The position numbers and the translations under genes were made by a program. A stretch of DNA of 64,000 nucleotides from the NCBI RefSeq assembly GCF_937958655.1, contig NZ_CALGNH010000014.1, positions 1 through 64,000 of the forward strand, read 5' to 3'. The notes beneath the pieces are model-generated. The model searched no databases. It was given only the letters and a program-made list of their open reading frames with translations, and was not told the origin of the DNA. This stretch comes from an uncultured Winogradskyella sp. (GTDB lineage: Bacteria; Bacteroidota; Bacteroidia; Flavobacteriales; Flavobacteriaceae). Shown one piece after another: positions 40,949 through 45,854 of this stretch (positions within the stretch are counted from its first letter, which is position 1; each line of letters starts with the position of its first letter).

Positions 40949-40954
40949 TATGTT

Positions 40955-41368
40955 TTATGCCGTCCCATTTTCTAAAGCATTGACTTTTCGCATTAGCATT
41001 TCAATCCTAATATCTTTAGAGTTTACAAGCGCATTAAGATCCTTAATTCTTGCCTTTAGTTGGTCTATTAGCTCATAGGGTAAATTAGTGTTAATACCAT
41101 TATATAATTCGTCATTACTTATTTTTGGATAAGCCGTCGTAATATCTTTTACGGTCTTTGTGTCTGTTTTGTTGATGCGTTGCATAAAATCAGTCACCTC
41201 AATATTATAGATAGTGGCTAGCTTGTAAAGATGCTCTAAAGTTATTTTAGCTTTACCACACTCTAAATTAGAGTAAGTCTTTTGTGAAATGTTAAGCTCG
41301 TGGGCGATAAAACTTTGGGTGTAATTTTTGTCTAGCCGAAGTATTTTAATGTGTTGAGCGGCAATCAT
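40955..41368 (-). CDS. XRE family HTH regulator with C-terminal coiled coil
   Basis: HIKILRLDKNYTQSFIAHELNISQKTYSNLECGKAKITLEHLYKLATIYNIEVTDFM plus heptad-like tail. Confidence 0.88.
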   Translation of the reverse strand: MIAAQHIKILRLDKNYTQSFIAHELNISQKTYSNLECGKAKITLEHLYKLATIYNIEVTDFMQRINKTDTKTVKDITTAYPKISNDELYNGINTNLPYELIDQLKARIKDLNALVNSKDIRIEMLMRKVNALENGTA

Positions 41369-41500
41369 AGGTAGTTAAGTCGTTTGAGTGATCTGTCATT
41401 AGATATCAGTGTGCTTTAAATGATTGATTTGGTAACTAACGCAAAATCAGTATAGTTAATAGCTTTTAATAAGCAATTTACTACAAAAATTTGTTTCTCA

Positions 41501-41541
41501 ATTACGGTTTTTCCGTAACACCTTTACGGAAAAACCGTAAT
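41501..41541. promoter_or_regulatory. nested perfect inverted repeat upstream of the XRE gene
   Basis: ATTACGGTTTTTCCGTAA-CACCT-TTACGGAAAAACCGTAAT: 18-bp perfect arms, each arm itself TTACGG-N5-CCGTAA. Confidence 0.75.
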
Positions 41542-42030
41542 CTGTAAGTATGGTAAGGGTTCTGGGGCTAAAAAAATCACTAAAAAAACAGCATTTTTTT
41601 GTTTTTAGTAAAATTTTAATGATGTATACCTACCCAAACCACCTAAAAATTAAGTGCCCTAGTAAAAATTTACAGTAGCATAGAACGAGTTTACTTAGAC
41701 CTTAGTAAAAATGGTATCACTTAGTAAATCTTTACTAGGTCAATTTACAAATGCTATATAATTTAGCCTCAAACAAAAAATAACACTAACCAAACTCATG
41801 TTGCCAATGACATAGTTCAATTACCATAAAAAGAGAAAGCCTCTACTAGGTAGAAGCTCTCACAGTTTTTCGTTAAGTAGATAAACTTGCGCTTATTTAT
41901 AATGCAAGTATATAAAAATTTTGTGATATAAGAAGTAGGTTTTATTTACAGGTGCAGAGCTTAAGCACCTTAATAAGCCGCTAATGCTCAATAGCGAAGA
42001 AAATGGGCAAAATCTTATAAAACAAATTAA

Positions 42031-42771
42031 ATGAAAAATTTAAAAAATATAATTTCAACTTTGGTAATGAGTCTTATGTTAATGCTATCTTTAAATGTAG
42101 ATGCACAAAAAAATACATCAACAAGTTTAGATGATATTATAAGATTAATAAAAGAAGGCTCGCCGACTTTTCCAGGTGCTATAGAGTTTCAAAATAGAAG
42201 TAATGACTCGTTTGAAGGCAAGGAAGCTGCAGATTTATTTATTACAAATTTTAAAAATTCTTTAACTGCTGTTCACAATGCTAAGGATAAGAGAAAAGCG
42301 CTTGAGGTTCATTCTTTAGGTAAATCTAAGTTGGAGTATTCGAATCTAGATGAATATGTGAGAAATAATAAAAAAGATGCTTTTGCATCTGAGTTAAATT
42401 TAATTATTAATAACAGTACCTCGGCTGAGGATTTTAACAATAAACTCTCTGATTTATCTAAAAGGGATTTAAAGGGTAGAGATAAGCAATTGGTATACAT
42501 AATGGTAAATATTATGGATATTCTAGAGCAGCATAATTCAACATACAGAAGTTCTTCTCAAGTTAAATGCAGTGGATGGTGGAGCTGTTGGGGGCAATGT
42601 GTTGCAGGAACAATAGGAGGTGCAGTTACAGGTGCCGCGACTCTAGGTATTGCTGGTGCTGCTGTGGGTACAGTAACTGTTCCTGTTGTTGGTACTGTTG
42701 CATTAGGGGCTGTAGGTACAATTGCTGGCGGTATTGGTGGTGCGCTAACGGGAGCTGCTGCTTCTTGTTAA
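42031..42771 (+). CDS. secreted protein with glycine-zipper, Cys-bounded C-terminus (bacteriocin-like)
   Basis: Signal peptide MKNLKNIISTLVMSLMLMLSLNVDAQ; C-term CSGWWSCWGQCVAGTIGGAVTGAATLGIAGAAVGTVTVPVVGTVALGAVGTIAGGIGGALTGAAASC. Confidence 0.7.
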   Translation: MKNLKNIISTLVMSLMLMLSLNVDAQKNTSTSLDDIIRLIKEGSPTFPGAIEFQNRSNDSFEGKEAADLFITNFKNSLTAVHNAKDKRKALEVHSLGKSKLEYSNLDEYVRNNKKDAFASELNLIINNSTSAEDFNNKLSDLSKRDLKGRDKQLVYIMVNIMDILEQHNSTYRSSSQVKCSGWWSCWGQCVAGTIGGAVTGAATLGIAGAAVGTVTVPVVGTVALGAVGTIAGGIGGALTGAAASC

Positions 42772-42795
42772 GATAACTTTTGAAAAATAAAAATT

Positions 42796-42978
42796 ATGGA
42801 AAAAAATAAATTACCAATAGTTTTAATTTTAGTTTTGTGGATTTTATTCACTTTGTACATCTTTATTTCAAAAGGAATTAAAAGTGGTTATACCTCATGG
42901 CAGTTTTATGCGTCATTACTAGGATTGGTTATCTCAATAGTTTTTTTGGTCATGGTTTTTCGAAAAATTAAAAGTTAA
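42796..42978 (+). CDS. small two-TM membrane protein (60 aa)
   Basis: MEKNKLPIVLILVLWILFTLYIFISKGIKSGYTSWQFYASLLGLVISIVFLVMVFRKIKS. Confidence 0.6.
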   Translation: MEKNKLPIVLILVLWILFTLYIFISKGIKSGYTSWQFYASLLGLVISIVFLVMVFRKIKS

Positions 42979-43131
42979 TTTTTAAAGGAGAGCAGGCGCT
43001 TGTTCTAAGTGTCTGTTCTTTTTTTAGAATGAAAAGTATATGACTTTTCCTTAACAAGTACACTGTTTTTTTAAAATAATAGACCATACTAAACTTAACT
43101 ATTGTGGCTTAATTAAATTAAAAAACAAAAA

Positions 43132-43302
43132 ATGAAAAAGTTATCCGGAATAATACTGGCACTAGCGTTAATTGCTTTGTCGATTGACCAACTCATATCA
43201 TTAGATTTTGAATCTAACAAAGTTAGTGTTGCAATTAATAGTATAGCACTCATATTCTTTTTGGGACTAATTATATACTATCTGTTTTCAAAGAAAAAAT
43301 AA
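43132..43302 (+). CDS. small two-TM membrane protein (56 aa), absent from supplied ORF track
   Basis: MKKLSGIILALALIALSIDQLISLDFESNKVSVAINSIALIFFLGLIIYYLFSKKK*, read directly. Confidence 0.55.
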   Translation: MKKLSGIILALALIALSIDQLISLDFESNKVSVAINSIALIFFLGLIIYYLFSKKK

Positions 43303-43348
43303 GTCAAAACTAAAAATTTGAACAAATCTTTTTAAAAATAATTATCAA

Positions 43349-43780
43349 ATGAAAAATCTAATATACATAATAACACTCTGTTTGCCAATGCTAATCATTG
43401 GCCAAAACGAAATACAGACAGAAGTCAACTTTAATGGGCATCATTGCCGAGGTACAAATGGTCTCTGTACCATAGGCTCTGGAGATATGGCTAAAAACAA
43501 TGTTAATTCCACATTGGTCTATGATGCCAAAAAAGGCCTTTTGTTAACTATTAAAATGGACAATCTCACCGATGAAGAACTGTCCAAAGCATTCGGAAAG
43601 GTTGTAAATAGAAAGAACAATAACGAGGAACTACAGTTAATCGTAGAGGGGGATTTTGAGCTAGACCAAAATCTATTAAAAACACTTAAAGTACCTAAAA
43701 AAAGAATAACTATCAAGGCAGGAAATTATCCTGTCAACAGAAAAGATAATATCGCAACGGTGCTTTTTAGTGTAGACTAA
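43349..43780 (+). CDS. secreted hypothetical protein (143 aa)
   Basis: Signal peptide MKNLIYIITLCLPMLIIGQ; NFNGHHCRGTNGLCTIGSGD. Confidence 0.65.
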   Translation: MKNLIYIITLCLPMLIIGQNEIQTEVNFNGHHCRGTNGLCTIGSGDMAKNNVNSTLVYDAKKGLLLTIKMDNLTDEELSKAFGKVVNRKNNNEELQLIVEGDFELDQNLLKTLKVPKKRITIKAGNYPVNRKDNIATVLFSVD

Positions 43781-43804
43781 ATTTTAAAAATTAAAAAAGC
43801 AAAG

Positions 43805-44839
43805 ATGAAAACTATAATAAAATATACCATTGTAATAGTCGCTATTGCCATGTGTAATTTTGGTTTTTCGTCTACAAAAGAAGAAAAACCAATAGAACGC
43901 ATCATAGAGGAACTCATAAGCGAAATCAAGTTGGCAAAGATAGAATACGATAAGCTGTATTACGGCCTCTATGCAGAACTCAACGCTACTAGCCATGCTA
44001 TAAGCAAAGCAGTTTCAGATAAGGATAAGTTAGACCTGTTGGTGTCCAAACACCAATTAGAGGCGGAATTGGAGCTGGTAAAAATGGATGAAGCGGCTGA
44101 GATTAGTAAAATCCGATATTTAAAAGGCTTACAGATTATTAAAATTTTATATGAAAAGACCTTGTCTTTGGATCACCATTTTGCCTCTGTGGCCACCTTT
44201 AATGAGATTAACAACTTAAGTAACCCTAATCAATATCCAGAGTTCATCAAGCTAAAGGAAAATTTAAGTGCTTCTGGTAACAAGAAAACAGGGTTTAGTT
44301 TGTCTTCCATATTGGGTGATAACATCTATACCTCAGTGGTACACTCTTTTGTGTCCTTGTTTAATAATGAGGATAAGTCCAAGAAAGAAAAAGAGGAGAA
44401 CCTGGAAGATGTAGAGTGTATTTTAGACTTTACCTTGCGTATGCATAACGACCTTAATACGATTTATTTTGAGACCGCTTTTTTACAAAAAAGCAATGAT
44501 AATATCATGGCAGAGTTGCAACAATTGTTCGTGGATTTTACAAAGCCCATAAAGTACAACACGGCTTTAAGCGACTGTCGTAATACTGATGATTGGGATA
44601 GGGTTAGGGAAAACCTTAATGGTTATTTAGACCAAATGGATAAAGCCTCAAGAGATGATGATATGCGCTACAAAGCGCATAAAATGCGTATCAATTTAGA
44701 GTTTCCCATAGACCGATTGTTGCAATTTATTACACAATACAACACCTTTAAAGACCAAGGATCCAAATTTTACGAGAAGTTCGGTATTATGTTAAGCAGT
44801 TACGAAAATGAAAAACAATGTGCCACAAAATACCTTTAG
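43805..44839 (+). CDS. secreted helical hypothetical protein; C-terminus possibly frameshifted
   Basis: MKTIIKYTIVIVAIAMCNFGFSSTKEEKP signal region; mostly helical; a -1 frame continuation reads on to 44964. Confidence 0.65.
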   Translation: MKTIIKYTIVIVAIAMCNFGFSSTKEEKPIERIIEELISEIKLAKIEYDKLYYGLYAELNATSHAISKAVSDKDKLDLLVSKHQLEAELELVKMDEAAEISKIRYLKGLQIIKILYEKTLSLDHHFASVATFNEINNLSNPNQYPEFIKLKENLSASGNKKTGFSLSSILGDNIYTSVVHSFVSLFNNEDKSKKEKEENLEDVECILDFTLRMHNDLNTIYFETAFLQKSNDNIMAELQQLFVDFTKPIKYNTALSDCRNTDDWDRVRENLNGYLDQMDKASRDDDMRYKAHKMRINLEFPIDRLLQFITQYNTFKDQGSKFYEKFGIMLSSYENEKQCATKYL

Positions 44840-44976
44840 AGTATGGTAAACTAAAGGAAAGTGTCAATATCGCTATTGAAAAGTTTAATACAGCTTATAA
44901 ACCTGTAGAGATTAATGGTAGTAAAATGAAGGAGATCCTTTACGGAATTAACGAGTACAATTAAAAGGAAGAGAAG

Positions 44977-45372
44977 TTGAATTTAAACACCCTTATATCA
45001 CCTGATTTAAAAACTTTAAATGTCACTGTACCAAAATTAGAAGGTACAGTGGCACTTAATTTGTTTTTGATTAAGTATGGTTTAGATTTTAATCGCTTAC
45101 TTTTTTTTAAGGATATAAAAAGTTATATAGAATCTTATAACAATGGGATGATTGCGCTACCCAATGCATATTTTTTTGATGAATACGGCAATGAGTTAGC
45201 GCTAAACCAAGAAGCAATGTTGAATGAAGATGATGCCTTTGCTTTTAAGTTGGCACGATTAATAGAAGATGCCAAGGCATATAATGTTAACATAGAATTT
45301 TACTTGCTTAATTGCGATATGTTAAGACATTGGGATTATAGTGAGTATAAAATGAAATCAGAAAAAAAATGA
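44977..45372 (+). CDS. hypothetical protein (131 aa, TTG start)
   Basis: Purine-rich AAAGGAAGAGAAG precedes TTG; ORF continuous with operon spacing. Confidence 0.55.
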   Translation: MNLNTLISPDLKTLNVTVPKLEGTVALNLFLIKYGLDFNRLLFFKDIKSYIESYNNGMIALPNAYFFDEYGNELALNQEAMLNEDDAFAFKLARLIEDAKAYNVNIEFYLLNCDMLRHWDYSEYKMKSEKK

Positions 45373-45551
45373 ATAATAAAGGAAGATTAATATTTGTGAT
45401 TGTGGTTGTAATAGTCACTTTACTTTTAAAGCACGGATTTCATATTTCAGAAATCACAATCAAAGATGTAGTGTTTACAATCCTTGGTGCTATTATAGCA
45501 GTTTTAATAATCGGTTTTTTGCAGCGAAACAAGAGCAAGCATCAAGCTTAA
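45369..45551 (+). CDS. small two-TM membrane protein (60 aa)
   Basis: MNNKGRLIFVIVVVIVTLLLKHGFHISEITIKDVVFTILGAIIAVLIIGFLQRNKSKHQA; ATGA overlap with previous ORF. Confidence 0.55.
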   Translation: MNNKGRLIFVIVVVIVTLLLKHGFHISEITIKDVVFTILGAIIAVLIIGFLQRNKSKHQA

Positions 45552-45580
45552 GAGTGTAAGCATAATTGAAAAATATAAAA

Positions 45581-45814
45581 ATGAAAAAATCTTTAAATTT
45601 AATCCCGTTTATTTTAATAGCATTATTCTATCTATTTGTTCGAGAAAACGAAGGTTTGTCATTTTTAGTCAAAATGGTTGTTCTAGCTGCAATAATTTTA
45701 GTGTCGTCCTATATGTTTTGGCAGAAGATGAAAAATCAAAGAATAGATAAAAATAGAATTGGATTACTGCTGCTCTTTATTATAATTGCGGTTGGGAGTT
45801 ATTGTATTCAATAA
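45581..45814 (+). CDS. small multi-TM membrane protein
   Basis: MKKSLNLIPFILIALFYLFVRENEGLSFLVKMVVLAAIILVSSYMFWQKM... Confidence 0.55.
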   Translation: MKKSLNLIPFILIALFYLFVRENEGLSFLVKMVVLAAIILVSSYMFWQKMKNQRIDKNRIGLLLLFIIIAVGSYCIQ

Positions 45815-45854
45815 ATTATATTGACTGAAAATTTGAGACAATGGAAATTAGAAA

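Follow-up and report, generated by a model that had tools for sequence, protein, structure and literature searches.

The window analysed here, a 64,000-nucleotide stretch of a contig from an uncultured Winogradskyella sp. (Flavobacteriaceae), raises the question of whether a secreted protein with a hydrophobic, cysteine-bounded tail is the precursor of an antibacterial peptide, and whether the genes around it belong with it. The open reading frame at 42031-42771 on the plus strand encodes 246 amino acids, and its translation matches the sequence quoted in a first-pass annotation, which had described a signal peptide and a helical region of ~150 residues followed by a Cys/Trp head, a Gly/Ala zipper and a terminal cysteine. 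This layout holds, and the precursor can be divided into three parts:

42031-42105 (+): Sec signal peptide of SPI type, residues 1-25, called from sequence
42106-42567 (+): helical pro-region, residues 26-179 (154 aa), fast-evolving, called from identity comparison and the AF2 model
42568-42768 (+): C-terminal bacteriocin-like domain, residues 180-246, with a CxxGWWxCWGxCVAGT head, a Gly/Ala zipper and a terminal Cys

Architecture and conservation of the precursor

Judged by eye, the signal (cleavage at ..LNVDA|QK) is of SPI type and has no lipobox; in most relatives a lipobox takes the place of the SPI site, its Cys followed by acidic residues. The pro-region helices are modelled with low to moderate confidence. 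The C-terminal domain (CSGWWSCWGQC...GALTGAAASC) runs up to the stop codon and is wholly uncharged over its 67 residues, with no D, E, K or R after K179, and hydrophobic 19-residue windows begin at about residues 194-223, in keeping with the TM-type tail proposed earlier. At the junction with the pro-region (QVK|CSGWW) a K or R immediately precedes the domain, a feature that recurs loosely among the relatives, and K179 might, at a guess, be a cleavage site. An open reading frame in an overlapping frame (42567-42776) can be discounted as a shadow of the zipper frame.

Across the 12 full-length members compared, mean identity is 53% in the tail vs 23% in the pro-region, which suggests that the tail is the functional end of the precursor. 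It is this conservation, rather than the GxxxG spacing, that argues against a chance origin of the domain, as the spacing occurs 6 times in the tail of the window protein vs 3.6 +/- 1.5 in shuffles, a moderate excess only, and shows a larger excess in the relatives' tails (12 vs 6.4 +/- 1.8). The number of tail cysteines is even in 15 of 16 members, and the two cysteines of CxxGWWxC are both present in seven, both absent in eight and discordant in one, although these sequences are mutually related and any p-values are nominal. All members keep the Cys of WGxC and a Cys at the C-terminus or close to it, and additional inner cysteines usually come in twos. Because the cysteines pair across relatives in this way, disulfides C180-C186 and C190-C246 are probable. 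The AF2 models are poor (pLDDT 53-56) and, for the C-terminal hairpin that the first-pass annotation proposed to look for, give a weak helical hairpin only.

Searches of Pfam, NCBIfam, PHROGs and the PDB returned no convincing match to the precursor. No NCBIfam family matched the window protein at E<=1 and none relevant matched among 17 relatives; the halocin C8 model matched neither the window protein (E<=1) nor the relatives. The suggested match to bacteriocin families was not found either, as PF10439 (class II bacteriocin) did not match the window protein and its best hit to a single relative (E = 0.06) lies below the cut-off. A known glycine-zipper surface family, the non-toxic possibility raised at the outset, likewise gave nothing over the cut-off, with weak sub-threshold matches to Gly-zipper_OmpA/YMGG in single relatives. 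We rejected a PADLOC match to LeoBC (E = 1.5e-4) and one to PHROG 24596 (E = 0.003) as compositional, both being low-scoring stretches over the helical/zipper tail. Nothing convincing was found in the PDB by sequence or by fold, the AF2 model being too poor for the fold search to count, and viral contigs held no relatives in profile and motif scans. The whole precursor was also unmatched by tblastn among phages and plasmids, which is weak evidence given that the filter masks residues 191-246. Ordinary searches miss the zipper family because BLAST, with its low-complexity filter on, hides everything in the tail from residue 191 onward, and this may be the reason for its absence from the libraries. 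A literature search, thin on subscription journals, found no published description of the family.

Relatives, neighbouring genes and insertion site

We scanned ~85,000 species genomes with a DNA pattern for WWxxWGxCxAGT, and additionally used profile searches. The pattern returned 17 loci, 13 of them real and four (L052, L061, L064 and L065) chance matches, while the profile searches added L032, L033 and L034. Conservation of the motif residues follows from how the scan was built; outside the pattern, what recurs is the terminal GALxGAAxxC, the zipper, the signal or lipobox and the gene next door. Hosts of the real loci are Nonlabens, Aquimarina, other Flavobacteriaceae, Cyclobacteriaceae, Flammeovirgaceae, Sphingobacteriales, Bacteroidales, Balneolales and Corynebacterium, the last with two records, both high-GC DNA. 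A search of 400 family genomes found one full-length relative (L002, 39% identity) and one tail-only relative (L003). The distribution is sporadic, scattered across Bacteroidota, Balneolota and Corynebacterium (2 of 351 Flavobacteriaceae genomes, 5 of 129 genomes of the Balneolales-type order), and the gene is absent from the 24 congeners and 15 order-level relatives searched, which answers the earlier question of whether it is a core gene: it is not.

The small membrane proteins that the first-pass annotation had noticed lie downstream, each with two TM segments, and were found together with a probable terminator and a divergent regulator:

40955-41368 (-): divergent HTH_3 regulator, candidate operon regulator, as HTH or AraC genes adjoin several relatives
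42796-42978 (+): 60-aa two-TM protein, candidate immunity protein, with SWQFYASLLG at TM2, called from the recurrence of such a gene at this position in relatives
42984-43024 (+): 19-bp hairpin with a U tail, probable terminator (fold -21.5 kcal/mol, z = -6.5)
43132-43302 (+): 56-aa two-TM protein, second candidate membrane partner, called from sequence

A two-TM protein of 54-97 aa lies directly downstream of the precursor in 14 of 16 WW-head relatives, compared with 4 of 291 background genes, namely the other genes of the relatives' loci put through the same test; at L055 and L060 the start codon of the small gene was chosen by us. The same arrangement is seen at L003 and L034, and the gene is missing from this position at L002/L054 and L059. 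Most of the two-TM proteins of Bacteroidota open TM2 with a Trp, and W[QK]FxASLL is common to the close ones. Since the hairpin with its U tail comes after the two-TM gene, the precursor and this gene look like one bicistronic operon.

Several relatives adjoin other bacteriocin-like genes. At L002:2374-2586 a class I lanthipeptide leader (NF038153, over the cut-off) lies beside the zipper precursor, and in Aquimarina (L059:1460-3150) a second lipoprotein, whose hydrophobic tail is rich in Cys, and two small peptides with GG leaders lie upstream of it, a locus that can be read as a cluster of putative peptide toxins. A secreted trypsin-like serine protease, which might serve in processing, is encoded after the zipper precursor and two-TM gene at a Corynebacterium locus (L062, minus strand, downstream of 4024). 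Of the enzymes that processing and disulfide formation might use, a clostripain-type (C11) protease and VKOR were looked for in the genome of the window itself, and neither is present.

The precursor lies in an insert at a hotspot, identified by comparison with congeners:

40949-45854 (no strand): 4.9-kb insert between convergent permease and engB genes

In 16 of 23 congeners no more than 40 nt (<=40 nt) separate the stop codon of the permease gene (39842) from that of engB (45858); six others carry different cargo of 0.3-1.4 kb, and one has an interval of 0.1 kb. One congener (L084/L097, G017; L097:1671-2325) has at this site a stretch resembling an HTH, a GA-leader peptide of 56 aa with a Cys-bounded hydrophobic core and a terminal Cys, and a 119-aa, 4-TM protein carrying SWAFYASG. 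Because this cassette occupies the same site, the permease/engB interval takes up bacteriocin-like cassettes.

Proposed function and alternative readings

The conservation of the tail against a fast-evolving pro-region, the paired cysteines, the two-TM neighbour, the sporadic distribution and the insertion at a cargo hotspot together lead us to propose, with a probability of roughly 0.7, that genes 42031 and 42796 form a Sec-exported pro-bacteriocin/immunity operon of a hitherto undescribed family. The bacteriocin idea of the first-pass description is supported by gene context, while its comparison with halocin C8 is not supported, NCBIfam giving no match and the cysteine layout being different. 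Counting against our reading are the poor AF2 models, the lack of a C11 protease and VKOR in this genome, the two relatives without a two-TM gene directly downstream, and the missing lipobox of the window precursor. As read from sequence, the precursor is exported by Sec; the pro-region would keep the peptide inert until a protease removes it, possibly at K179. The released 67-aa peptide would fold with the two predicted disulfides closing a hydrophobic glycine-zipper loop, and may then enter the inner membrane of sensitive cells as a helical hairpin and oligomerise to a pore. Judging by its position and topology, the 60-aa two-TM protein would sit in the producer's inner membrane and block insertion or the pore, and the operon would travel as horizontally exchanged cargo. 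If active, the peptide would represent an unlisted bacteriocin family spanning Bacteroidota, Balneolota and Corynebacterium that exits by Sec rather than a dedicated peptide exporter, and precursor-plus-immunity pairs of this kind would offer a ready rule for mining the genomes of Bacteroidota, a group with few known peptide toxins, for antibacterial peptides.

Gene order and topology resemble those of BcpT/BcpI (PMC9308784) and Fab1/Rfab1 (PMC8406203) of Bacteroidales, whose protoxins are exported, activated by proteolysis and encoded just ahead of a small immunity gene. Points of likeness are an exported precursor (BcpT being a lipoprotein), proteolytic activation and a C-terminal active part, both predicted for the window protein, a small gene directly downstream, for which an immunity role in the window is a candidate assignment, and horizontal spread. 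However, the active fragments of BcpT and Fab1 are about 28-30 kDa and are not described as glycine-zipper peptides, whereas the domain of the window protein has 67 aa; they are activated by C11 proteases, which the window genome lacks; and BcpI is a lipoprotein, unlike the two-TM candidate here. The Cdz system of Caulobacter (PMC5380434) consists of glycine-zipper killers with a small TM immunity protein, of which CdzC/D act at the surface, and resembles the window locus in its zipper toxin and small inner-membrane immunity protein, both of them candidates here, and in horizontal acquisition. Cdz, however, uses type I secretion, two short peptides and cell contact, in contrast to a single precursor that is exported by Sec, has a long pro-region and keeps its cysteines across relatives, and the gene content of the insert includes neither type I secretion genes nor two glycine-zipper peptides.

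Bacteroidetocins (class IIf; PMC6671954) are likewise Bacteroidota peptide toxins with Cys pairs, made with a 15-aa GG leader and a 42-aa core beside peptidase-transporter and thiol oxidoreductase genes and without an immunity gene; the window locus has no ~57-aa precursor, no 15-aa GG leader and no neighbouring thiol oxidoreductase. Class IIc/d bacteriocins and class IIa microcins (PF10439) share the hydrophobic GxxxG peptide, the Cys at both ends and a small TM immunity protein, but have a double-glycine leader and a dedicated ABC exporter in place of a 25-aa Sec signal and 154-aa pro-region; the QVK|CSGWW junction is not that of a short GG leader, and the insert contains no transporter gene. 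Microcin V is a glycine-zipper class IIa microcin. Halocin C8, too, is hydrophobic, contains Cys and forms the C-terminal part of a secreted precursor, but it is archaeal, Tat-exported and different in the number and spacing of its cysteines. Since the defining features of GG-leader class II peptides, bacteroidetocins, Cdz and halocin C8 are all lacking, we file the window protein as a new family of bacteriocin kind.

Among the alternatives, we consider it unlikely that the protein stays at the surface, as a lipoprotein or aggregate, and kills by its zipper tail on contact only, as Cdz does; most relatives are indeed lipoproteins with acidic residues after the Cys, and CdzC/D set a precedent for surface-acting zipper proteins with a small TM immunity protein, but a lipobox is missing from the window protein and type I secretion genes from its surroundings, and Cdz peptides are short and have no such pro-region (PMC5380434). 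We give little credence to a non-toxic structural or signalling role, in which the secreted helical domain would be anchored by the zipper hairpin and partnered by the two-TM protein. Zipper domains are common in envelope proteins, and the sub-threshold OmpA/YMGG matches and adjacent regulators fit such a role, but it predicts a conserved pro-region rather than tail, the reverse of what is observed; the gene is also not core and is exchanged at a hotspot, and conserved paired cysteines with a terminal Cys are unusual for a TM anchor. Lastly, a secreted peptide signal cut from the precursor and sensed by the neighbouring regulator is very improbable: divergent HTH genes in the window and at L034, and AraC-type genes near L002, L003, L056 and L063, would suit it, but these regulators are not one family (the two HTH proteins are 23% identical), a receptor kinase is absent, and an uncharged hydrophobic peptide of 67 aa would make a poor diffusible signal.

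A secreted gene pair and a possible wider system

Two further genes follow the second two-TM gene:

43349-43780 (+): 143-aa secreted protein of a conserved pair, which recurs beside other precursor/membrane-protein cassettes
43805-44839 (+): the pair's other member, a secreted helical protein of 344 aa in a frameshifted copy (relatives 380-391 aa)

The second protein is shortened because an A-run near 44830 carries a frameshift (region 43805-44964), perhaps a genuine lesion and perhaps an error of sequencing. Its relatives occur in 18 of 300 other family genomes. Ahead of them lie other precursors that carry a signal and end in a short tail rich in Cys/Trp or in Gly, each with a membrane protein or lipoprotein next in line, except at about five loci that by eye show no such pair. 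In another genus (L007/L118, a weak match) a zipper-tailed secreted precursor and a 39-aa TM protein precede relatives of both 43349 and 43805, with the order kept, and L119 has a C...C peptide precursor with a two-TM protein. Four loci (L122, L124, L126 and L127) encode secreted precursors of 187-189 aa ending in CKW[WY]xLWCHLxxVxG... and a hydrophobic helix, each with a lipoprotein of ~245 aa downstream, a candidate for another toxin/immunity pair. Three more (L125, L130 and L132) encode secreted precursors of ~200 aa with a Cys-rich NxWNSCWPxSSPCxC tail; next comes a multi-TM protein, and both of those tested, from L125 and L132, match CPBP (PF02517; E down to 5e-16). The CPBP family is known for bacteriocin self-immunity in lactic acid bacteria.

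Tentatively, these loci could reflect a polymorphic Sec-exported bacteriocin system in Flavobacteriaceae, a proposal that we hold as possible and rather doubtful. The 143-aa and 385-aa secreted pair would be shared processing, display or delivery machinery, and the precursors (GWWxCWGxC zipper, CKWWxLWCHL helix, Cys-rich NWWNSCWPxSSPCxC and others) would be exchangeable, each with its own immunity protein (two-TM, CPBP/PF02517 or lipoprotein). We rejected the stricter idea that the zipper gene always needs the pair, as other zipper loci do not have it in the flanking DNA examined. With relatives of 43805 missing from that DNA, a terminator of the operon's own and a frameshift in the 43805 gene, the pair is at most helpful to the zipper operon and not required. 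The rest of the insert (44977-45814) is filled by a 131-aa protein and two small TM proteins; the start of the 131-aa protein is uncertain and it is probably cut at its N-terminus, and by eye it resembles a 213-aa lipoprotein at L129.
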